From Lentisphaerota bacterium (lineage in GTDB: Bacteria; Verrucomicrobiota; Lentisphaeria; Victivallales; Victivallaceae), in assembly GCA_015061525.1 (NCBI GenBank), contig SUWK01000020.1, forward strand, positions 1 through 39,391: DNA of 39,391 nt. Direction: 5' to 3'. Below the pieces are notes generated by a model. The model had not been told where the DNA came from and searched no databases. It worked only from the letters and a program-made list of their open reading frames with translations. Both the position numbers and the translations under genes were made by a program. This document shows positions 128 to 10,696 of the stretch, one piece after another. Each line of letters begins with the position of its first letter. The first letter of the stretch is position 1.

Positions 128-354
128 CGATCCTCGGAACTGATTCTGAGATCGCCGACAAATACTACACCCATGTAGGAGATTTCGCCCAAAGACAGGC
201 AGTTGAAGCCATTTCTGGAGAAAGTAAAAGAGATTGTTTAAAAAATCGAGTTCAGCAAGTTCTTGCATTGCTTGCTTCAAAACCGACTCCGACCCAAGAG
301 GTTCTTGAACAAGTGAAAAATATATTAATAAATGGTGGCAATAATGGACTATGA
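121..354 (+). pseudogene. Tyrosine recombinase (phage-type integrase), C-terminal fragment
   Basis: The frame reads SILGTDSEIADKYYTHVGD and then a charged helical tail to a stop at 352-354. This matches the last catalytic segment of tyrosine recombinases: the 'LGH.S...' turn, then the nucleophilic tyrosine before T-H-V (codon 166-168). Everything upstream, including the core-binding domain and the R-K-H-R part of the active site, is absent and is replaced by the hairpin-rich DNA. The fragment cannot be active. A GTG at 94 keeps the frame open through the hairpin, but those residues do not look like integrase. It marks the integrase end of the mobile element that continues rightward. Its end overlaps the next gene by about 10-20 bases. 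Confidence 0.65.
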
Positions 355-1087
355 TTTCAATACTGATCTTGACTATACTGGTTATGAAAAAATACTTTGC
401 GAGCGTCTTGCCCCAAATTTATTGTTGGCGCAAAAATTTTTTGATATATACCGGAATTTGGATCTGCCAAATAAAAAAGATATTTTTGACATTATTATTT
501 TGAAGGGTATCTTGCTTCGCGCTCCATTTGCATTGGATGTAGAAAAATTAAAATCTGTAATAGAAACATTGGATACTCTCAAAGCATCCGGACAATTAGA
601 ACAGGTGATGAGTGTCGTCAGTTTCTTTGTCGAACAACAGAAAAATCTTTACACAGCAAGAGAAGAGCAAAAGTGTAAAATTCAAACACAGAACGCGACG
701 AAAGCAAGACAAGATGATTCAATAGAGCGTTGCTTGGTAATCGAAGAGTTTTTGCAGCAAGTTGAATTGCTTCGCCATCCTCAACAAGAACCGCCTGAAG
801 AACAACCGAAGAGAAATGCGGCATACTCAGAAAAAACAGCTGTACGAACTGTTTTCAGACAAAACGAAGGTGATATCGTTGAAAAATTAAAAACATGCGG
901 CATTGAAAAAGAGTTTGAAAAAGAGTTTGGCAACTGCTTCAGATTTTATACAGATTTTTTTATAAAGCATACGGGAAAAACTTGCAGTGGTTATATCAAG
1001 GAAAAACGCTCTCCGCGTAGTGATGAATCCAAAAAACGTTCCAGAAATTCTGCTATAAACACATGGAAAAAGCGGCATAAAAATTAA
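332..1087 (+). CDS. Hypothetical protein, helical and charged (~250 aa)
   Basis: The product is not recognised. It has no signal peptide or membrane segment. The middle (about residues 95-155) is rich in Gln, Glu and Lys and probably coiled. The last 40 residues are very basic (KEKRSPRSDESKKRSR..., then WKKRHKN), as in nucleic-acid-binding tails. Two in-frame starts exist: ATG 332, and ATG 344 with a slightly better upstream GGTGG; neither has a strong ribosome site. The start overlaps the integrase remnant, so the pair was probably co-transcribed. A strong terminator lies 20 bases beyond the stop. An accessory protein of the mobile element is the likely class, by position only. Confidence 0.6.
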   Translation: MVAIMDYDFNTDLDYTGYEKILCERLAPNLLLAQKFFDIYRNLDLPNKKDIFDIIILKGILLRAPFALDVEKLKSVIETLDTLKASGQLEQVMSVVSFFVEQQKNLYTAREEQKCKIQTQNATKARQDDSIERCLVIEEFLQQVELLRHPQQEPPEEQPKRNAAYSEKTAVRTVFRQNEGDIVEKLKTCGIEKEFEKEFGNCFRFYTDFFIKHTGKTCSGYIKEKRSPRSDESKKRSRNSAINTWKKRHKN

Positions 1088-1105
1088 TAGAAAAAGTTAT
1101 AATGC

Positions 1106-1137
1106 AAAACCACAAGGCGTTACCTTGTGGTTTTTTT
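1106..1137 (+). terminator. Rho-independent terminator
   Basis: AAAACCACAAGG (1106-1117) and CCTTGTGGTTTT (1123-1134) form a perfect 12-bp stem around the loop CGTTA. The strand ends in seven T residues (1131-1137). It closes the integrase-fragment/hypothetical gene unit. Confidence 0.9.
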
Positions 1138-1181
1138 GTGTCAAAATTCTAAAGCTCATAGTTAAAGCATGACGTTCGTCA

Positions 1182-1220
1182 AAGTTTATAACATGCTGAT
1201 TGTTGTCATGTTACAACTTG
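1182..1220. promoter_or_regulatory. Imperfect inverted repeat, possible operator
   Basis: AAGTTTATAACATG (1182-1195) and CATGTTACAACTT (1208-1220) are inverted copies with one base missing and one changed. The repeat lies directly upstream of, and touching, the proposed -35 of the HTH gene at 1273. That position suits an operator for a regulator of the replication operon. Confidence 0.4.
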
Positions 1221-1247
1221 CACAATACTTGTTTGCGGAGTATTTTA
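1219..1247 (+). promoter_or_regulatory. Putative sigma-70 promoter of the replication operon
   Basis: TTGCAC (1219-1224), a 17-base spacer and TATTTT (1242-1247) give a plausible vegetative promoter. It lies 25 bases before the HTH start codon. The hexamers are imperfect, so confidence is limited. Confidence 0.4.
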
Positions 1248-1272
1248 TACAACGAAAAAAGGAGAGGCATTA

Positions 1273-1626
1273 ATGAACCATTCGGAAAAAACTTTGCGAC
1301 CGCAGACGGCACAACTGGTGTGCCGCCTGCTGGCTCCGTTGCTTGATTCCGGGTTGGTCACTGCTGATGAATTTTCAATTATAAAGCGTAACCTCGATGC
1401 TCTGGCGAAAACTGGTGAACTGGCTCCAGCAGTTCCACATAAACTGATCACACCGCAGGAAACAGCTGAAATGCTTGGCGTGAGTTACAGCCAGTTTCGT
1501 CAGTTAGAAAAAGACGGCGTTTTTGAAAGGTATTTCAAACGTCGTACAATTGGAGGTAAAACCGTCCGGTACTATCTGCCGGACATAGTTAAATATATGG
1601 CACAAGCAGAAGCTGAGGCCGAATAA
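1273..1626 (+). CDS. Excisionase/MerR-like helix-turn-helix protein
   Basis: This 117-residue protein has a helix-turn-helix in its second half: ITPQETAEMLGVSYSQFRQLEKDGVF, then a basic wing KRRTIGGKTVRYYLPDIVKYM. This is the layout of HTH_17/excisionase-type DNA-binding domains, where 'R.YL..DI..YL' closes the domain. The first 55 residues are helical and of unknown role. The start is set by GGAGAGG at 1261-1267, five bases before the ATG. It is first in a tight rightward run with the ParB-like and helicase genes, so it may act as operon regulator, excisionase or replication initiator helper. The fold is well supported; which of these roles it has is not. Confidence 0.75.
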   Translation: MNHSEKTLRPQTAQLVCRLLAPLLDSGLVTADEFSIIKRNLDALAKTGELAPAVPHKLITPQETAEMLGVSYSQFRQLEKDGVFERYFKRRTIGGKTVRYYLPDIVKYMAQAEAEAE

Positions 1627-1641
1627 ACGAAAGGAGGCGTT

Positions 1642-2343
1642 ATGCCGAAAAAAGAAGAAACTTTGAAAGACCAGCTGATGAAGTGTGAAAAAATCATCAG
1701 CGAAGCGCAGGCGGGAGCAGCCAATGCAAAAAGAGCATTGTACAAAATCCTGCAGGAAGAATTGTGGAAGGCAGAATTTGCTACCGAAGCCCAATACCTT
1801 AAAGCACGCGGGTACACGAGAGGTACAATCAGCCACATACGCAGTTTTGTGGAGTTGGTGGATGAGCTGAACATTCCGGAAGATCTCTGCCCCAGTGAAT
1901 TTGCGGTACGACCATTGGCGAAGAAGGCATTCGCCGAAGACCGGGCGGAGATTTACGGTACGGCATGTGAGTTTGCAAAAAAACGCTCGGAGGGAGCGAC
2001 CACAATTCCCACGTTGCCCGATATAAAAAAGGCGATCAAGGAATACTGCGACAATCAATCACAGGAGATCATACTCCGGGCGATCGATGTCAAAGTTCCG
2101 GCTGATACCGATTTTATTGCGGGGATTATCGGAGATCCTGCTATCGCTGAAAAAATAAAATCCTCCCAGCAGTTGTTAGCCGTGCTGAAGGATTTTTTCA
2201 GAAAAAAAGCGGCTCCGGCAAATGTTCGGGAAGCAACTGAAAATTTTTTGAGCACGCTTCGCTCCAGAGAAAATCAGGAATTGGATAAATTTTTTCAAAA
2301 GAAATCAAATCATGAAGATGGAGATACTGATAATGAAGAGTGA
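1642..2343 (+). CDS. ParB/KorB-like DNA-binding protein (tentative)
   Basis: The 233-residue product has a helical N-terminus. It then carries YLKARGYTRGTISHIRSFV followed by LCPSEFAVRPLAKK. This echoes the HTH of ParB/KorB proteins, where a recognition helix is followed by 'ES..RPLL'. No N-terminal ParB nuclease/CTPase motif (GERR-type) is visible, so only the DNA-binding part seems present. The C-terminal 100 residues are helical and end in an acidic tail. AGGAGG stands a few bases before the ATG. The 3' end overlaps the next gene, indicating translational coupling. Partition or regulation for the element is the likely role; the family call is tentative. Confidence 0.5.
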   Translation: MPKKEETLKDQLMKCEKIISEAQAGAANAKRALYKILQEELWKAEFATEAQYLKARGYTRGTISHIRSFVELVDELNIPEDLCPSEFAVRPLAKKAFAEDRAEIYGTACEFAKKRSEGATTIPTLPDIKKAIKEYCDNQSQEIILRAIDVKVPADTDFIAGIIGDPAIAEKIKSSQQLLAVLKDFFRKKAAPANVREATENFLSTLRSRENQELDKFFQKKSNHEDGDTDNEE

Positions 2344-2890
2344 GATGACATTGGAACAGTCCGGCAGCAATTGCCGGACTGTTCCCGACCTTATGACACC
2401 GGAAAAATGCCGGGCGACTGACAAACTGTGTTCCTTACTGATTCATCCAGGCGACTATTCTGCCCCTGCGATTGAAACCCGACGCCGGATTCATATCCTC
2501 GTAAAAAATCTCATACTCGATCCCGCCGGCAAAGAAATGGATTTCAGTGCGGAGACGCTGGCAAGATTGACCGCATGGTTTGATGCAATGCCTAAAAGTC
2601 TTGGATATTTATACTTGCCGACACTTGAGCGTGAAGCCCAAATATTGATTCCGAAGCCGATACGTTACCCGCTGGATAAAACAGAATTCCTTAACAGTGT
2701 CGTGAACTTTCACCTTAACGCGCAATATTTGAATTGTCCACAATTGATTATCGGCTTGTACATTATGCTGTTTTTTTCGCTCCAGAATTTTCAAATGCTG
2801 GAGTATGGATGGGGAGAATTCGTTGACAGAATAACCAAGCCGCTTGGGCTTGGATATGGAGGCGGCTATGGTTCGGGATTTAGAATTTGA
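2333..2890 (+). CDS. Hypothetical protein in replication operon (~185 aa)
   Basis: The family is not recognised. The frame is open from ATG 2312, but ATG 2333, with GGAG at 2320-2323 nine bases before it, is the better start. It still overlaps the end of the ParB-like gene. Residues near the middle are ordinary soluble protein. A hydrophobic stretch (LIIGLYIMLFFSLQNF) near residue 150 could be a buried helix or a weak membrane segment. The C-terminus is glycine-rich (GLGYGGGYGSGF) and overlaps the start of the next gene by 23 bases. Co-translation with the downstream genes suggests a role in element replication, but nothing in the protein states it. Confidence 0.55.
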   Translation: MKSEMTLEQSGSNCRTVPDLMTPEKCRATDKLCSLLIHPGDYSAPAIETRRRIHILVKNLILDPAGKEMDFSAETLARLTAWFDAMPKSLGYLYLPTLEREAQILIPKPIRYPLDKTEFLNSVVNFHLNAQYLNCPQLIIGLYIMLFFSLQNFQMLEYGWGEFVDRITKPLGLGYGGGYGSGFRI

Positions 2891-4673
2891 GCGGGACATT
2901 ATGTATGCGTCCAAATGTGAATTATTTCTCAATAACGCCGACATCAAAACTTTGCAAAAAGCATTGCCGGTAGTAAATGGTGAAAATAATTCTATGATTC
3001 TCAATGGGAAAATTGAAATAGAAAGGGATAGACCGGCTCGTCCGAATTTGCTTCCGATGTATGGTTTCGTTAATCAGATTCAGGGTTCTCAACCTCGGAT
3101 AAAATATTGCATAGATACAGATTTTGGACGTTGTACAGAGGTATTGCTCCCGTATGCCTGCAAGTTTCCTATGCTGAATGTTGTCGGCGACAACCTTCAA
3201 GATGTGCCGGATCAAGCGCTTCGTTTTGCCAGACAGATCGGTCCTGCTCTCGGAATATCTGACCAGTGGGATGACCGATTGATGAAGAATGCCGGAGCAT
3301 GGCAGGAGGCAAAAATAGAATATGCCCAATACGAAGTGGCTTTTATGTCAAAACAGGGTAGCGTTTTCTCTATCATGGATAATGCCGGGCATATTCGAAA
3401 TTTGATAATTAAAATTGATGTGAATATTCTCTCTTACATATTACTCCCGTTAACCTTTGCACAGCATCCGAACTTTCCTCAGCCGATGGTTTGTCATCAT
3501 GCATTCTCCCCAGACTGGTGGTTGTTTAACACAATTGGATTGAAATATAATCCCCATGCAGAGGTGATTATCTGCAATTGCTGGGAAATATGCGAGAAGT
3601 CATCGTGGAATGAAAAAAATGTTATCCTCGGCTACTTTTGGGGCGAAGGGATGATTCCGCATTTGCATTTGGAATGCCTTGTCGGACGGAAAGTGAGTTT
3701 GTTGCTAATTGAGTCGAACAATGACAAAATAACCCGGCAGAATCTATTGGAGGCTCTATTGTTGCAATCCCGGCTGAAATCAATGGATATAAATGCCGAT
3801 ATTTTACTGGCGAAAGAGAGGATGTTTTACAACGAGACACAAGAGTTCCTGCAAAGTGCGAAATCTATAACAACGGATGCTTTGGTAAATATGGCGAAAA
3901 GTTTCGGAATAGATATACCCGAAAACTTATCTCCGAATCGTTTCGGCAGACTGCAGCAGACATCCTGCCGGACATTGATCGGGGATTTTGCTGAATCCGG
4001 AACTCTTACCGCTGTAACTATTCATCATGGCGTTGATATTAATCTTGTCACAACAGCTATCCTCTACGGGATTTTACAAAATGAAAATATTTTTCCGGAT
4101 CATTGGTTATGCAAATATCAGATAATCCCCGAATGCTTTATCATCAGCAGTACCGTGAATAAGCATCAACGGCTGTTGAAGCAATTAACTCCAGAGTCGA
4201 CTTTTACATTTCATGGGCTTGATAATCTTAAAAAAGATGGTGCGGTAAAGTGTTTGAACGGGATCTGTCATGAAAACAAATCCGATATTTTCATTTTTTC
4301 CGGTCGAGAGATCATCAAAGAATATCAGGCAGAATTACAGCAGGCGTGTGATTGGGCAGTGAAAAAAGAAAAAGCGATGGTTGTTGTTACGTCTCACGAT
4401 AGTTCCGTTTCTGAAAATTTCATCGCAGATCACGCAGGGCGGGATATTCATGTTTGGAGCAGTGGAAAAAATCAATCCGAATACATAATAGAAGATCGTC
4501 CGTTACTCGGCGGCAAACCTTCATTTTTCAAAATTGAATACAAAGGAAATGCTTGGACAACAGCCGCCGCTTCAGATGATGAGATCAGAAATATAGACGG
4601 ACGTAATTTCAGTATGAAAAATACTTCAGAAAATTCCGGAGAAAAAGCAATCAATAATTATCGGAGATATTAA
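2868..4673 (+). CDS. Large protein of unknown function, partner of the SF3 helicase (601 aa)
   Basis: No family could be assigned. The start is ATG 2868, because GGAGG at 2858-2862 lies five bases before it; the open frame extends to a TTG at 2844. There is no Walker A motif, no obvious nuclease or polymerase motif and no signal peptide. A central part (HAEVIICNCWEICEK ... VSLLLIESNNDK) has alternating strands and helices that faintly recall a Rossmann or TOPRIM-like fold, but the DxD of TOPRIM is missing. The end reads SDIFIFSGREII and later AMVVVTSHDSS, again strand-like. It ends two bases before the helicase start. That helicase lacks a primase domain, so this protein is a candidate for the missing primase or loader; that is inference from position only. 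Confidence 0.6.
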   Translation: MVRDLEFERDIMYASKCELFLNNADIKTLQKALPVVNGENNSMILNGKIEIERDRPARPNLLPMYGFVNQIQGSQPRIKYCIDTDFGRCTEVLLPYACKFPMLNVVGDNLQDVPDQALRFARQIGPALGISDQWDDRLMKNAGAWQEAKIEYAQYEVAFMSKQGSVFSIMDNAGHIRNLIIKIDVNILSYILLPLTFAQHPNFPQPMVCHHAFSPDWWLFNTIGLKYNPHAEVIICNCWEICEKSSWNEKNVILGYFWGEGMIPHLHLECLVGRKVSLLLIESNNDKITRQNLLEALLLQSRLKSMDINADILLAKERMFYNETQEFLQSAKSITTDALVNMAKSFGIDIPENLSPNRFGRLQQTSCRTLIGDFAESGTLTAVTIHHGVDINLVTTAILYGILQNENIFPDHWLCKYQIIPECFIISSTVNKHQRLLKQLTPESTFTFHGLDNLKKDGAVKCLNGICHENKSDIFIFSGREIIKEYQAELQQACDWAVKKEKAMVVVTSHDSSVSENFIADHAGRDIHVWSSGKNQSEYIIEDRPLLGGKPSFFKIEYKGNAWTTAAASDDEIRNIDGRNFSMKNTSENSGEKAINNYRRY

Positions 4674-4675
4674 TA

Positions 4676-6088
4676 ATGACAGACTTTCAAGATATGGATT
4701 TCGGAACACCTTTTGTGGGTACAGGTGGTGCAATAAGGGTCAATCAGCGAAGCATTGCTAATGAATTCAGTAAAACGGCCCAATACCGCTACATCCGGTT
4801 TAACAAGCAGTTTGAAATTTACGACTGTAATACAGGAACATGGTCGGTTATTTCAGCAGATGAGATAAAAAATATGATTTTTACTTTTGCGTTATCTCTG
4901 CGCGATGAGTTGGATATAGATGATGTTTGTGTCGCTTTGACCGACAATGTTCTAAGTGCTATTGCCAGGCAGCTGCAGTGCATTGTCGGAGTAGATCAGT
5001 TTCAAGTTCCGAAACAAAGATGTATTCATTTGAAAAACGCCATGTTGGTTTTTGATGATAGCACCGGCGATTTTACTGAAACTGCATTCGCTCCTGAATA
5101 CAACAGCCGTTACCGGCTTGAGTTAAAGTATAATCCTCAAGCAACATGCGACCGGTTTATCAATGAATTGATTTTACCAATGTTGCAGGACAAAATGGCG
5201 ATTGAAATAATTCAGCTCTATTTCGGGCAATGCCTATTGCGGGAGAATATCAGCCAGACATTTATGATTCTTTCCGGTCCGGCATCTGTCGGAAAAAGTG
5301 TTTTAGTCAATATCATTGAAAAAATACTTGGAGAAGAAAATGTCGATGAACTGCATCCGGATCGTCTGAATAATCCCTTTGAAATGGTTGCGTACAGCGG
5401 AAAAAGTTTATTGACGGCAAAGGACGTTGAAAACGATGTTCTTTCAGCTAACAAAATAAACGCAATCAAGAAAATGACCGGCAATGACTTGTTGAGCTGT
5501 GAACAGAAACACAGCAACTTCAGAATCCAAGCTCGCGGATGTTTTAATATTATTATTACCGGCAACGGTGATTTGACATTGAATTACGGCAGTTCCAGAG
5601 ATGCTTTTAAAAGGCGTATGCTCTGGATTGATTGTGTGGTTCCGGAAAACTTCCGAAGAATCAATAACTTTGATGATGTGTTGATGTCAGAGGAAGGGGA
5701 AGGTATTCTGGCTTGGGCAATAGAAGGAGCCAAAAAACTTTTGGCAAATGGCGGCAAAATAATCAAATCGAAGGAACAAAATGATGCCATTGAATATCTC
5801 TTGGATGAGTCAAATCCGATTGACAGTTTTGTAAAGCAGTGCGTTTCAGTGGAAACAGATTATTCTGTAACTTCAGCTCAAATTGTAGAAATGTTTTATA
5901 AATTTGCCAATTTCTGTCATTGGAATAATGATACCTTATTGAGAATGACACAGCGGCAAATTGAACAAAAATTCCATCAGGCAATATTACGTTGGAGACC
6001 GGAAATAAGACCTTCGACCAATATTAGACAACCTGAAACCGGCAAATTATGTCGCGGATATCTGCACTGTCGAATTACTTTACCTTAG
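4676..6088 (+). CDS. SF3 helicase, phage/plasmid P4-type (primase C-terminal-like)
   Basis: This is a superfamily 3 helicase of the P4 alpha/D5 group, an ATP-driven replicative DNA helicase for an element origin. Walker A is GPASVGKS at residues 201-208. A strand with the Walker B position follows (LLTAKD, about 246-251). Motif C is IIITGN (292-297), and the arginine finger region is FKRRML (311-316). A helical D5-type domain precedes the motor. The usual N-terminal primase-polymerase domain is absent: the protein is 470 residues against 700 or more for fused forms. It is the last gene of the operon beginning at 1273, two bases after its neighbour. The assignment is firm; only the element type is uncertain. 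Confidence 0.9.
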   Translation: MTDFQDMDFGTPFVGTGGAIRVNQRSIANEFSKTAQYRYIRFNKQFEIYDCNTGTWSVISADEIKNMIFTFALSLRDELDIDDVCVALTDNVLSAIARQLQCIVGVDQFQVPKQRCIHLKNAMLVFDDSTGDFTETAFAPEYNSRYRLELKYNPQATCDRFINELILPMLQDKMAIEIIQLYFGQCLLRENISQTFMILSGPASVGKSVLVNIIEKILGEENVDELHPDRLNNPFEMVAYSGKSLLTAKDVENDVLSANKINAIKKMTGNDLLSCEQKHSNFRIQARGCFNIIITGNGDLTLNYGSSRDAFKRRMLWIDCVVPENFRRINNFDDVLMSEEGEGILAWAIEGAKKLLANGGKIIKSKEQNDAIEYLLDESNPIDSFVKQCVSVETDYSVTSAQIVEMFYKFANFCHWNNDTLLRMTQRQIEQKFHQAILRWRPEIRPSTNIRQPETGKLCRGYLHCRITLP

Positions 6089-6234: not shown

Positions 6235-6762
6235 TCATGTATTGGCTTGTTTGGAAACAAATTCCACGATCTTTCTCATACCGCAATTGGCAGTCAATGC
6301 CGCATTGATCCTTTCCAGACATTCATTCCCCGGAGTGATCATCAGAATATCACCGGAGACAGACAGCTTTTCGGCATCGGAAGCATCAAGCACGAAGCGA
6401 CTGTCGATCAGCGTTGCAGTCTGGAAACAAATCCTGCTCGGGAACAGTTTTTTTATGACACCGGAAACAACTTTGACATTGGCATTTTCAGTGGCGAGTA
6501 TCAAATGGATTCCCACATCACTCCCTTTTCGAGCAAGCCGGATAAAGTTATCATCCATTTGGCAAAATAACTTCAAATCGGCAAAATCCTCAATGATAAG
6601 TACGATTCGGGGCATTTTTTCGCGAGCAGATACCAAAGCATTGTACCCGGTCAGATCATCCACGCCAGCGGCGGCAATGATCCGGCGGCGGATTTTGATT
6701 TCATGGAGCAGCTCTTCAAAAGTTTCATCTGCCTCACCCGCTCGGCGGATCTTACAAATTAA
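6235..6762 (-). pseudogene. FtsK/SpoIIIE-like gene remnant (motor C-terminal half)
   Basis: The readable part has the second half of an FtsK-type motor: the Walker B strand IVLIIEDFADL, then GSDVGIHLILATENANVKVVSGVIKKLFPSRICF, DSRFVLD and GDILM. The order and spacing match the intact FtsK-like gene to its right. Upstream, an in-frame TGA at 6763-6765 (read on the minus strand) breaks the frame and no Walker A region in proper spacing is found. Downstream it stops at VEFVSKQANT, so the winged-helix gamma domain of the intact copy is missing. It is therefore truncated at both ends. It is a decayed tandem paralogue rather than a frameshifted copy of the neighbour, since the residues differ at many positions. 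Confidence 0.75.
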
Positions 6763-6822: not shown

Positions 6823-6922
6823 TTGATACAAAAAATAAATAACCTCCGGATTTATACAGCATGAAAAATTCTCTGTATACCTCTGGCATTTGTTCCGAAA
6901 GTTTATTTTCTGTTTGTATCAA
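6823..6922. repeat. Spaced inverted repeat around the end of the FtsK-like gene
   Basis: TTGATACAAAAAATAAA (6823-6839) recurs inverted as TTTATTTT (6902-6909), five extra bases, TGTATCAA (6915-6922). The arms are about 60 bases apart. The right arm contains the stop codon of the FtsK-like gene. The repeat separates the intact FtsK-like gene from the remnant, so it may mark the joint of the duplication or a former insertion. Confidence 0.4.
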
Positions 6923-8520
6923 TGTGCTGTAAAAAACAAAATTTTATGTTTGTCTTCTCTCCCGGATGGAGATCCGACAACGCCGAACTCTTTCATAATT
7001 TCCGATAACTCGACGGCACGGTCGTAACTGATATTCAGTAGCAGCTGCAGATGGCTGGGGCTGGTTTTGCGTTCAAGGATGATCACTTCCAATGCCCGGA
7101 GCATGATGTCATCATCTTCCGGAAGCATATCTTCCAGAACCATATATTCATGAACCAATAAGGCAATTGAGGTATACTTTTCCGGGGAAATAATTTCATC
7201 CAAATCATCATCTGTTTCCTCCTCTGCATTTTTCGGATTCGCAGGTATGGCATTCATTGAATCGCGGCGAAGTGTAAAATTTATGATCCTGCGAACATCC
7301 TCTATTTGGGCAAAAGTTCCATGTACACGTTCAATTCCCATACAAGAATCGGTCACCGTCAACATATCACCATTGTCGCACAGATTTTCTGCTCCAAACG
7401 CATCAAGTACCACATGACTGTCAAACATAGAAGTCGTCTTGAAGCAAAGGCGGGTCGGAAAAAGATTTTTGATGACTCCGGAAATAACATTGATTCCAGT
7501 GTGCATGGTGGCTAAAATCAGATAAATTCCGACATTACTTCCCCGTTGAGCAATTTTAGCAATGAGTCTGATTGCCTCTTTCTCTGACATCAGTTTCCCT
7601 GCATTGTCAATAATTATTACGCAGCGCGGCATCGGATGATCCTGAAAAAAGTTGTTATATTCAGTCAAATCAGCCAATCCGGCATCGGTAATTTTTTCGT
7701 AGCGCTGATCAATGATGTCAACCAAATCCGAGAGTTCTTTCATCATTCGCTCCCGATGAAAATGAAACATCTGCATGGATGGCCAGGGGAATACTTTCCG
7801 GCAGATGCTTGCTCTGTGCTGCAAAGTGTATATTTTCAGCGTCAGTTCATTCGGGGAAAACTTGTGAAGCAGACTGATTACAATAGAGTTGAGAAGAGCA
7901 TTCTTACCGCAGTCTGCCGTTCCGACAATGAGCAGATGATGAATTTGCCCGAGGTCATAGATAACCGGTTTGCCGAAAGTATTTTTTCCGATGGCAAGCG
8001 GAATTTTGGCATTGGTATTTTTCCATTCTTCGCTTTCCAGAATCTGACGGATTTTCACCGGCTGAAAAGAACTGGTCGGTACTTCTATAATAACATGGTC
8101 ATCAGCCGAGAGCAATATCCGGACATTGCGGGAGTTCAAAGCAAGACAAATATCTTTTCGGAGCCTGGGAAAAGTATCAACATTTCCTTCCGGAGCAAGA
8201 GCAATTTTATAGTTGGTGAAATCGGAATTGGATATGCAGTCAACGATTTTGCCGGGGATGGAAAATTTTTGCATGAGTTTATTGATTCTCTGCTTGCAGG
8301 CATCGATGATTTCCGGGGATTCTCCGGCCAATCCGGTTGTTTTCGGAAGCAGATCCAGAGGAAATTTGCCAACTGAATCATGGGATTCAAATCCCGGAGC
8401 GAAAATCTTGGCAAGGTCGCTTTCTTTCAGAATACCTTTTTTGTAGAGCAGTTCAGTCAGAGCGATGATGTTTTGAGCATTTTGAGTTTCGGTTTCGGAG
8501 CAGTGGTTGTGATCAGACAT
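6919..8520 (-). CDS. FtsK/SpoIIIE-like DNA translocase with degenerate ATPase motifs
   Basis: The 533-residue protein follows the FtsK scheme: IPLAIGKNTFGKPVIYDLG, HHLLIVGTADCGKN at the Walker A place, IIIDNAGKLM at Walker B, GSNVGIYLILAT, VISGVIKNLFPTRLCF, VVLDAFGAE and GDML. A C-terminal winged helix of the FtsK gamma type follows (ALEVIILERKTSPSHLQLLL..., then MKEFGVVGSPSG). The N-terminal membrane segments of cell-division FtsK are absent, so it is cytosolic. Two key positions are changed: Walker A ends GKN instead of GKS/T (about residues 200-207), and Walker B reads DN instead of DE (about 305-306). ATP hydrolysis is therefore doubtful, while DNA recognition by the gamma domain looks intact. 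ATG 8520 is chosen over the upstream start for its AAAGGAA site. It is last in a leftward cassette. Confidence 0.85.
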   Translation of the reverse strand: MSDHNHCSETETQNAQNIIALTELLYKKGILKESDLAKIFAPGFESHDSVGKFPLDLLPKTTGLAGESPEIIDACKQRINKLMQKFSIPGKIVDCISNSDFTNYKIALAPEGNVDTFPRLRKDICLALNSRNVRILLSADDHVIIEVPTSSFQPVKIRQILESEEWKNTNAKIPLAIGKNTFGKPVIYDLGQIHHLLIVGTADCGKNALLNSIVISLLHKFSPNELTLKIYTLQHRASICRKVFPWPSMQMFHFHRERMMKELSDLVDIIDQRYEKITDAGLADLTEYNNFFQDHPMPRCVIIIDNAGKLMSEKEAIRLIAKIAQRGSNVGIYLILATMHTGINVISGVIKNLFPTRLCFKTTSMFDSHVVLDAFGAENLCDNGDMLTVTDSCMGIERVHGTFAQIEDVRRIINFTLRRDSMNAIPANPKNAEEETDDDLDEIISPEKYTSIALLVHEYMVLEDMLPEDDDIMLRALEVIILERKTSPSHLQLLLNISYDRAVELSEIMKEFGVVGSPSGREDKHKILFFTAH

Positions 8521-8616
8521 AGTTTTTCCTTTCGTTGTAATTGAGGGGTAATAATCGGTAATATATATCCCGCCATCGGACATTTTGTGTCCGACAGCAG
8601 AAAAATTCAGAAAATT

Positions 8617-9177
8617 TTACAAGTCGCAATGTTTTTCCAGAAGCTGCGTGGAAATATCGCAGATCCGGCGGCGCAGAGATACCGGAGAAATGATTGTGGC
8701 ATGGGGACAAAAGTGCATCACCCATGGGATAAGTTGGGATTGCTGAATGCGTTTGATACGGATTTCGCCGTTGTTATCGGATTTTACAGTAAGTTTCTGT
8801 TGGTGGTGCAGCGGATAGCGGCGGGCATAGCGGGTGAGGGTTTTATCACAGAGAATAACCACGTCATCCACAGTGTCGCTGCACAATTGATTTTGAAATT
8901 CCGGCAAAGCGGTATTACCACCCGGAAAACTCCATGAAAGATCGGTCAGAAAATAACCGTTGCGGGATGGATCGAATTCAATAGGGGCGTTGAAATCATT
9001 TTTCAACGTCTGGATGTCCCGGTAGATGGTTTTGGGAGTACAGGCGACATTGAGATTTTCCTCAATATCCAGTTTCCGCATCTGGCGGGCGAATGAAGAA
9101 CAATTAGGATACCGGTCACTCTTGAGCTGATCGGCAAGACGGATGAGACGAAGCAATTGTTTTTTTGCAATGGGCAT
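8617..9177 (-). CDS. Shortened WYL-type transcriptional regulator (HTH plus C-terminal WCX part)
   Basis: The N-terminal 80 residues form a DeoR/HTH_11-like winged helix (LLRLIRLADQL ... TPKTIYRDIQTLKNDFNAPIEFDPSRNGYFL), the usual start of WYL regulators. The C-terminal part (IPWVMHFCPHATIISPVSLRRRI) matches the WCX extension, where 'W.l.fg..a.v..P..lr..i' is typical. At 186 residues it is far shorter than the usual 300 or more, and the central WYL sensor module appears to be missing or reduced. Start ATG 9177 has a strong AGGAGG. It lies 20 bases after the small membrane peptide gene and before the FtsK-like gene. WYL regulators often control defence or damage responses in mobile elements; that role is inferred here. 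Confidence 0.75.
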   Translation of the reverse strand: MPIAKKQLLRLIRLADQLKSDRYPNCSSFARQMRKLDIEENLNVACTPKTIYRDIQTLKNDFNAPIEFDPSRNGYFLTDLSWSFPGGNTALPEFQNQLCSDTVDDVVILCDKTLTRYARRYPLHHQQKLTVKSDNNGEIRIKRIQQSQLIPWVMHFCPHATIISPVSLRRRICDISTQLLEKHCDL

Positions 9178-9197
9178 TAATACCTCCTTTTTTGTTT

Positions 9198-9290
9198 TTA
9201 GCATCCGGCAATAGCAAGCACGATAAGGATGAGTATCAAACACCCGCATCCTGCGTTATCGCCATCGTGATGATAAACGTGAATTGCCAT
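9198..9290 (-). CDS. Small membrane peptide (30 aa)
   Basis: The frame encodes MAIHVYHHDGDNAGCG followed by a hydrophobic run CLILILIVLAIAGC to a TAA. It is one soluble His/Asp-rich head and a single transmembrane helix bounded by cysteines. An excellent ribosome site (AAAGGAGG, seven bases before the ATG) supports real translation. The next gene's AGGAGG begins just after its stop, so they are co-translated. No family is recognised. Possible roles are a membrane anchor or sensor, a leader peptide, or a toxin-like peptide. Confidence 0.6.
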   Translation of the reverse strand: MAIHVYHHDGDNAGCGCLILILIVLAIAGC

Positions 9291-9333: not shown

Positions 9334-9702
9334 TTATTTTTGTTTGCAGAAAATACCGGTACCACCGCATTTGCGGCAAGTTTTGCCGGTTGGCTGATAG
9401 ATCCCGGTTCCATCACAGCGGAAGCATTTTCCGGTATATTCGCTGGAATATGTATTGAAAATCAATCCGCGTTTCCCATTGCGTTCACCGACTTCACAAC
9501 CATTGTCATCGTAATGAGTGGTTTGGTCGTGGTTGTCAAAGAAGCCTTGGTTGTGAGTATACTCTTTGATCGTGCCGGTTTTGTAATTATGAACGATGGT
9601 TTTCGGGTTGCCCCAAAAGTCGGTGGTCCGTTTTACCGAGGTGCCGGTTCCGAACAAACAGTTGAAAAAGTCTTCGATAAATCCAGTTTCGCGTCTCCCC
9701 AT
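9334..9702 (-). CDS. Small protein with C-terminal DnaJ-type zinc finger
   Basis: The 122-residue product ends in CFRCDGTGIYQPTGKTCRKC and then GGTGIFC. That is two CxxCxGxG repeats, as in the zinc-binding module of DnaJ, so one zinc ion is probably bound. There is no J domain. The first 80 residues include two short repeats of the 'G...tvhnyktGtikeyt.n' kind, resembling small antiparallel repeat proteins. ATG 9702 is chosen because GGAG precedes it at proper spacing; the open frame extends upstream without a ribosome site. It is the first gene of the leftward cassette, 43 bases downstream of a predicted sigma-54 start point. A chaperone-like or RNA/protein-binding role is possible but not shown. 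Confidence 0.7.
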   Translation of the reverse strand: MGRRETGFIEDFFNCLFGTGTSVKRTTDFWGNPKTIVHNYKTGTIKEYTHNQGFFDNHDQTTHYDDNGCEVGERNGKRGLIFNTYSSEYTGKCFRCDGTGIYQPTGKTCRKCGGTGIFCKQK

Positions 9703-9755
9703 GATTTGCTCCTTTCGTTGTTTTGTTGCTTTCAAGGTTTTGCACTCTTCTATTA

Positions 9756-9772
9756 AGCAATCCCTGTGCCAA
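9756..9772 (-). promoter_or_regulatory. Sigma-54 (RpoN) promoter
   Basis: Read on the minus strand the site is TTGGCACAGGGATTGCT. It has the -24 element TTGGCAC, exactly five bases, then the -12 element TTGCT. GG and GC are separated by ten bases, as required. It matches the family consensus (TGGCAC, N5, TTGCW) in nearly every conserved position. The expected start, near 9745, is about 43 bases before the zinc-finger gene. Such promoters need an enhancer-binding AAA+ activator; none is in the window. Confidence 0.7.
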
Positions 9773-9899
9773 ATCGTGTCAAACGGGTGTGTTTTTGGCG
9801 TCATACCGCTGAGAAATCTTTCCATCACGCAAGCAAACCTGTTTGTTATCAACGAGATAAAATTCTTTAATTTTTTTACAGCACGCATATTATTTGCAG

Positions 9900-9939
9900 T
9901 TGACACAATCCCCAAGAGGTGATATCATTATTAATGATA
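9900..9939 (+). promoter_or_regulatory. Sigma-70 promoter with palindromic operator
   Basis: TTGACA (9900-9905), 17 bases, TATCAT (9923-9928) is a near-consensus promoter for the RtcR-like gene. The -10 lies inside a perfect inverted repeat, TATCATT (9923-9929) / AATGATA (9933-9939), so a repressor bound there would block transcription. Confidence 0.6.
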
Positions 9940-9971
9940 CTTGTTAAATATACATAAAGGTTATTGATAAT

Positions 9972-10478
9972 ATGAGCACAAGAGTTCTGTTTTCCTGGAT
10001 CGGCTTTAGAGATTTGAATTTCATAGCCGACAAACTCAAGGACGAAAAATTTGCTGCAGCTCTAAAAAAAGCTAAAGATTCCAGACAAAAAGCCGGCAGC
10101 AATATCAGTGAAACTTCTAACTACAGTCCTGTTTACGAAATAATCAAAGATAAAATCCTCGGGGAGATCAAATCCGCGAAACCCCAAATCGATAAAGATC
10201 GCATGAATAGGTTGATTTTGTTTTGCGATCTGACCGATGACGTATTAATAGAAGGTGCAAAGAGTTATTTTGAAAATAATGTCAGTTTCAACGGCAAGCA
10301 TCAGGATAAAAAACTTTTTCAGCGTGTTGAAATAATTAAAATTTCTCCGAGAAACACTCATGATTACGAAGCTGTATTGACGGCAGTTACAGAGCAATGG
10401 AATATTCAGGAAAGACCTCAAAACATAATCCCTTATTTTAATAACTGCTGTCCGGTAAAAATTTCCGGAGTTGGTTGA
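9972..10478 (+). CDS. Stand-alone RtcR-N-terminal-like (CARF-like) sensor domain protein
   Basis: The 168-residue protein starts with a strand and turn (RVLFSWIGFRDLN). It continues with SPVYEIIKDKILGEI, RLILFCDLTDD and VEIIKISPRNTHDYEAVLTA, and ends YFNNCCPVKISGVG. The order recalls the N-terminal ligand-sensing domain of RtcR and other sigma-54 activators, in which a 'VEI.l.nP.DfE.v...l' segment precedes an 'i..TTGTh'-type loop. Here the loop position reads FNNCCPVK and the protein stops shortly after. The AAA+ and DNA-binding domains of RtcR are absent. It is thus a sensor without an output domain, or a truncated gene. It is divergent from a sigma-54 promoter. The fold call is from pattern only. 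Confidence 0.45.
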   Translation: MSTRVLFSWIGFRDLNFIADKLKDEKFAAALKKAKDSRQKAGSNISETSNYSPVYEIIKDKILGEIKSAKPQIDKDRMNRLILFCDLTDDVLIEGAKSYFENNVSFNGKHQDKKLFQRVEIIKISPRNTHDYEAVLTAVTEQWNIQERPQNIIPYFNNCCPVKISGVG

Positions 10479-10696
10479 AAACCGGGATTTGTCAAAGTTT
10501 AACAAGAAAATCCTGAATGATGCATTAATATAGCATATCTTCTCAACATGTCAACTCCCGCCCTGATGTCGTTTAAAAAAGACCGATATTGCGGTCATTT
10601 CACAGTGTGGAAACAATTCCTGACCTTGCAGCGTGATGGAGGTTGTCAAAATCCGGAAAAGTTGTTCAAAAACATCTGTATTTCAGGTTTCATTAT

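Follow-up and report, generated by a model that had tools for sequence, protein, structure and literature searches.

Does a short CARF-type protein encoded opposite a sigma-54 promoter work as a stand-alone sensor, or is it left over from a full-length activator? The question arises at positions 9756 to 10478 of a 39,391-nucleotide contig from a Lentisphaerota bacterium (GenBank assembly GCA_015061525.1, contig SUWK01000020.1), the whole of which is called the window here. A first-pass annotation took the protein for a split sensor or decoy regulating a leftward cassette. That reading is tempting, but it is corrected here to one of a gene broken at an insertion sequence: very probably, the locus holds a CARF-AAA+ activator gene cut at such an element, beside an orphaned sigma-54 promoter that precedes a DnaJ-zinc-finger/WYL/FtsK cassette.

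The window promoter and the probably truncated CARF gene

On the minus strand, positions 9771 to 9756 read TGGCAC-N5-TTGCT, an exact −24/−12 element (TGGCACAGGGATTGCT) directed leftward, where a near-perfect site had been claimed. The pattern TGGCACRNNNNTTGCW has this single exact match in the window. Although a scan for the RpoN consensus thus recovers the site, its letters by themselves are weak evidence, both in 39 kb and genome-wide: at up to one mismatch the window holds 2 sites against 0.84 expected from shuffled sequences, so the letters alone prove little, and the 2.83-Mb host assembly has 2 exact matches against 1 for the reversed pattern. It is the position of the site that makes it convincing: a leftward gene has its ATG (9702) 54 bases downstream, and the divergent gene is from a site-rich activator family; at most of the relatives' sites described below, the distance to the gene start is similar, at 59 to 108 bases. 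The host genome carries rpoN, on which the first-pass proposal depended. Across the 34 genomes of the genus, the host's included, 122 exact −24/−12 matches stand against 28 for the reversed pattern, and the genus therefore uses this element. The window promoter is very likely real.

Facing it on the plus strand is an open reading frame (ORF; 9972 to 10478) of 168 amino acids with an ATG start. Its proposed relation to CARF/RtcR sensing domains is borne out at the level of CARF-type sigma-54 activators: the ORF is 38% identical to the N-terminal domain of such an activator in a genus-mate, G011, and a profile of nine other N-terminal domains, with the window left out, matches it with an E value of 5.8e-12 over model positions 2 to 116 of 176, i.e., the first two thirds. 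We rely on this value, since profile A1 includes the window row and its E of 7.8e-29 for the window is circular. The homology ends at codon 157, and by homology, profile, and model, positions 9972 to 10442 appear to be what remains, at the 5′ end, of a gene for a CARF-type sigma-54 activator, with 157 codons covering the first half of the CARF fold. Both the alignment and the predicted structure stop short of the SSGT motif and lack its strand and all later CARF strands. The model has three strands of at least three residues, with a fairly confident core (mean predicted local distance difference test score [pLDDT], 78.8) and a pLDDT below 50 for residues 157 to 168. As the first-pass annotation had noted, the AAA+ domain is missing: Pfam detected neither Sigma54_activat nor a helix-turn-helix (HTH) domain in the ORF, nor was a piece of either found elsewhere in the window. 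The remainder of the activator gene was not found in the window or in the assembled genome. By these comparisons, the ORF is evidently a genuine homologue of a CARF activator N-terminus, but one encoded by a broken gene.

The break has an identifiable border. An insertion sequence starts at 10443/10444, exactly where the activator homology ends, and copies in genus-mates and in the host genome mark its degenerate left end at 10444 to 10629 (right limit approximate). Codons 158 to 168 and the stop codon of the ORF are encoded by its terminal repeat; this foreign tail of 11 residues (10443 to 10478, plus strand) shows few differences from the terminal repeat of other copies. No right terminal repeat was found for the window insertion sequence. 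The protein is therefore not the stand-alone sensor first described, since the insertion sequence supplies its end and the CARF domain is only partly present.

We propose that the locus was once a divergent pair: a small leftward cassette with a sigma-54 promoter and, reading rightward, a gene encoding a sigma-54 activator of CARF-AAA+ type, akin to RtcR but distinct from it. On binding of a nucleotide-type signal by its CARF domain, the activator would have switched on the cassette. The activator gene would then have been hit by an insertion sequence immediately ahead of its SSGT codons, and its remaining codons would have been lost later together with the right end of the insertion sequence. 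This would have left an orphaned promoter and half a CARF domain, deprived of the portion needed to drive sigma-54 transcription. The cassette may now be silent or be served by another activator.

Intact relatives and their sigma-54 sites

Using the profile that includes the window row, we searched 197 genomes of the class, the host's own included, at a threshold of E 1e-5. CARF-activator matches were found in 22 genomes (26 genes, some of them weak matches), and 22 of these genes, that of the window included, were scanned for sigma-54 sites over 5 kb per side as contigs allow, 194 kb in all. Four weak matches were left out (G105:C448, G146, G148, and G163; E 5.8e-8 to 4.0e-6); several of those scanned are also weak, and one, in G002, is a true RtcR. 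The strongly matching relatives lie in frames of at least 500 codons. All five intact relatives scanned for domains are single chains that join a CARF-type N-terminus to a Sigma54_activat AAA+ domain; a Pfam HTH was matched in two, and in the other three an HTH is presumed from the C-terminus only. A split sensor finds no counterpart among these five proteins, and in the window copy the break falls within the CARF fold, where the insertion-sequence end begins.

The 22 loci contain 10 exact sigma-54 sites, compared to 0.07 in resampled sequences and none for the reversed pattern in the 194 kb, with at least one site in 7 loci. When the window and the previously seen G011 are removed, 6 exact sites remain in 20 loci. 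A gene start lies within about 165 bases of 8 of the 10 sites, the gene behind the window site being taken from the ORF list. As in the window, an exact site and the activator gene point away from each other in G011, G171, and G082; the arrangement is thus shared by the nearest relative, G011.

Antiviral genes are among those behind these sites. In G011, a member of the same genus, the locus (L034 7351-14290, G011:C29) comprises the CARF activator and three exact sites, which precede a 130-amino-acid membrane-like protein, an 820-amino-acid protein, and a viperin gene. The G171 locus (L060 3944-11339, G171:C92) likewise has the activator and three exact sites, one of them before viperin and another, beyond the 5-kb scan, before an 820-amino-acid protein with a GHKL domain (E 5e-5), which matches its G011 counterpart over 99 residues (E 2e-9). 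Both viperin genes match pVip (PADLOC PDLC02903; E 1.9e-76 and 2.2e-77). Exact sites also precede type I restriction subunits in G187 and G092 and, in G082, a protein with weak TPR and HATPase matches. One-mismatch sites lie before cas10 in G139 (L059), where cas10 directly follows the CARF activator, and before a J-domain gene in G100; in G196 (L063), cas10 is one gene away from the activator, and the scanned sequence yielded no site even when one mismatch was allowed.

Viperin offers a view from the target side. A pVip match (E 1e-30) occurs in 12 of 387 genomes of the phylum, and in the surrounding regions, which span 8 to 17 kb and in part stop at contig ends, a CARF activator is present in two, G011 and G171, the same two that have exact sigma-54 sites. 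In the other 10 viperin loci, neither a CARF activator nor a site even at one mismatch was found. The split is small in numbers but clean; among these 12 loci, exact sites were seen only where the activator was, so that RtcR-like activators can be tested directly as switches responding to infection. It is possible, although we place this a little short of probable, that intact relatives in this class form an inducible immune regulon. In it, infection would be detected by the CARF activator through a nucleotide or RNA-end signal, and several sigma-54 promoters would be triggered together; the genes behind them would encode prokaryotic viperin, a large partner of GHKL type, restriction proteins, or the effector of a type III CRISPR system. 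The window would be a decayed member with an undescribed cassette. If so, immunity would be switched on at transcription and not via CARF nuclease effectors. The intact family is a more interesting lead than the window copy.

With RtcR (PF06956, NF038308), these proteins share a CARF-type sensor, sigma-54 activation, and the divergent layout of RtcR genes. PMC7790460 and PMC9650030 describe RtcR as a sigma-54 activator of RNA repair genes. In contrast to RtcR, the window ORF and the five intact relatives scanned lack PF06956, the four relatives scanned score 241 to 297 bits against NF038308 (cut-off, 650), the window ORF matches no family in Pfam or NCBIfam, and the leftward genes of the window match zinc-finger, WYL/WCX, and FtsK families, not rtcA/rtcB. 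RtcR in the strict sense is thereby not confirmed for the window ORF, and the intact relatives scanned are not RtcR either. The protein of G002, a genus-mate, passes both cut-offs (712 bits for NF038308); its gene (G002:C38, L112 164-5344) is divergent from that of a 900-amino-acid protein whose match to TerD is weak and under the cut-off.

A better fit on sequence grounds is provided by RtcR-like CARF-AAA+-HTH activators, which PMC4012209 and PMC11090510 associate with restriction systems and link to CoCoNuTs, respectively; CARF-sigma-54 activators beside restriction systems are thus already published. The intact relatives resemble the activators described there in domain order, sigma-54 contact domain, and defense-gene neighbors, whereas the window copy is truncated and its cassette is of DnaJ-finger/WYL/FtsK type, and the relatives studied here have viperin and cas10 genes as further neighbors. 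No viperin was found in the window's own genome, and, judging by titles and the starts of abstracts in a literature search covering few subscription papers, no paper among those listed deals with CARF-sigma-54 control of viperin. Close relatives of the window ORF were absent from phages and viral contigs, and the only one in genome contigs was G011 itself. A sequence search of the PDB with profile A1 gave a best E value of 0.03, at chance level, with CARF proteins (Csm6) at 0.3.

Alternatives to a broken activator gene

Could the short protein be functional after all, as a stand-alone half-sensor, a decoy, or an inhibitor of another activator? Its ORF is open, with an ATG and a candidate sigma-70-like promoter, and its core is modeled with fair confidence. 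Nonetheless, it lacks the SSGT-motif strand and everything after it, borrows its tail from the insertion sequence, and stands apart from strongly matching relatives in full-length frames, and an activator to inhibit was not found in the assembled genome; we regard this as the least probable of the alternatives. A misjoined contig, with the real gene intact elsewhere, would also produce a break at a dispersed repeat, and the assembly is of metagenome type (122 contigs, 2.83 Mb, 89.6% complete), with a G+C content of 0.41 to 0.45 left of 9705 and 0.48 to 0.50 right of 10757. Against this, the rest of the assembly yielded no strong activator match, and the repeat copy has diverged from the other copies in its own genome, which match at 66% over 155 bases or are short (6 of 56 candidates scored); further comparison gave 75 to 91% in pieces of 34 to 84 bases, together with identical 22-base ends. 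A misjoin is thus highly improbable.

A third possibility concerns the promoter, which might belong to a host sigma-54 chaperone regulon under a general activator, the CARF remnant being coincidental. Downstream of the genome's second exact site lies what we take to be a dnaK-like gene, and among the 17 loci of the genus at which an ORF was called behind the site, exact sites precede five further genes that are presumably dnaK-like and two that are presumably clpB-like. In addition, the first cassette gene has a DnaJ-type finger. Chaperone genes, DnaK among them, are published sigma-54 targets (PMC12316311). The recurrence of the divergent arrangement of exact site and CARF activator gene in three relatives argues otherwise, as does the failure to find, in the assembled genome, an activator serving either exact site; we consider this explanation unlikely.

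Several observations weigh against a broken activator gene that once controlled this promoter. The scanned stretch has no exact site in 15 of the 22 CARF loci, and 2 of the 10 exact sites (one in G171, one in G109) have no called gene start within 1 kb. No activator-binding motif common to the window and G011 promoters was detected, the longest shared word being 9 bases and a repeat search yielding nothing in common. The structure prediction that had been suggested produced a core of fair confidence, but the structural matches of the model are weak, and a Foldseek comparison with the PDB gave none at E 0.001. The ORF is open over 157 codons, and selection may act on the remnant. Finally, the contig may possibly have been joined in error at the repeat, or the activator gene may lie in the missing part of the assembly.

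The leftward cassette and neighboring features

The first gene behind the sigma-54 site (9334 to 9702, minus strand) encodes a 122-amino-acid protein with a CxxCxGxG-like zinc finger of DnaJ type, matched by Pfam DnaJ_CXXCXGXG (E 0.069) and, over 33 residues, by TIGR02642 (E 3.1e-4), both below cut-offs. It is followed on the same strand by a WYL-family-like regulator (8617 to 9249; Pfam WCX, 3.9e-6; PADLOC WYL, 1.1e-6; HTH_11 below cut-off), an FtsK/SpoIIIE-like protein (6919 to 8583; Pfam, 2e-18; phrog_1358, 3.4e-51), and a shorter FtsK-like fragment (6235 to 6663; Pfam, 2.5e-5; phrog_1358, 4.3e-24). Of the cassette make-up first described, the zinc finger (weakly), the WYL-like regulator, and the FtsK-like protein were thus matched; the membrane peptide has no clear candidate in the ORF list, and no search was aimed at it. 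No second copy of the pairing of this cassette with the sensor was found, and other genes lie behind the relatives' promoters. Outside its own genome, the zinc-finger protein has two weak partial matches among 198 genomes and none in phages or viral contigs; the WYL protein has none in viral contigs or plasmids. The cassette could serve a stress or defense role.

The left 9.7 kb of the window looks like an integrated mobile element because the genes left of the cassette, reading rightward (332 to 6088), include a DUF5906 primase-helicase (phrog_864, E 1.5e-36); an excisionase-like HTH protein is also among them. Upstream of the CARF gene, a candidate sigma-70-like promoter (9900 to 9928, plus strand; TTGACA-17-TATCAT with TG before the −10) scores 11/12 in a consensus scan, which found 12 such sites compared to 10.5 in shuffles and so lends it weak support. 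An AT-rich palindrome (9923 to 9939) overlaps its −10.

The other exact sigma-54 site of the assembly, upstream of the dnaK-like gene mentioned above, is at G000:C80:3023-3038 (L072 1501-1516). Divergent pairs of exact sites about 130 to 200 bases apart recur in the genus, at G032:C86, G005:C13, G007:C21, G024:C185, G026:C11, G009:C4, and G023:C8.
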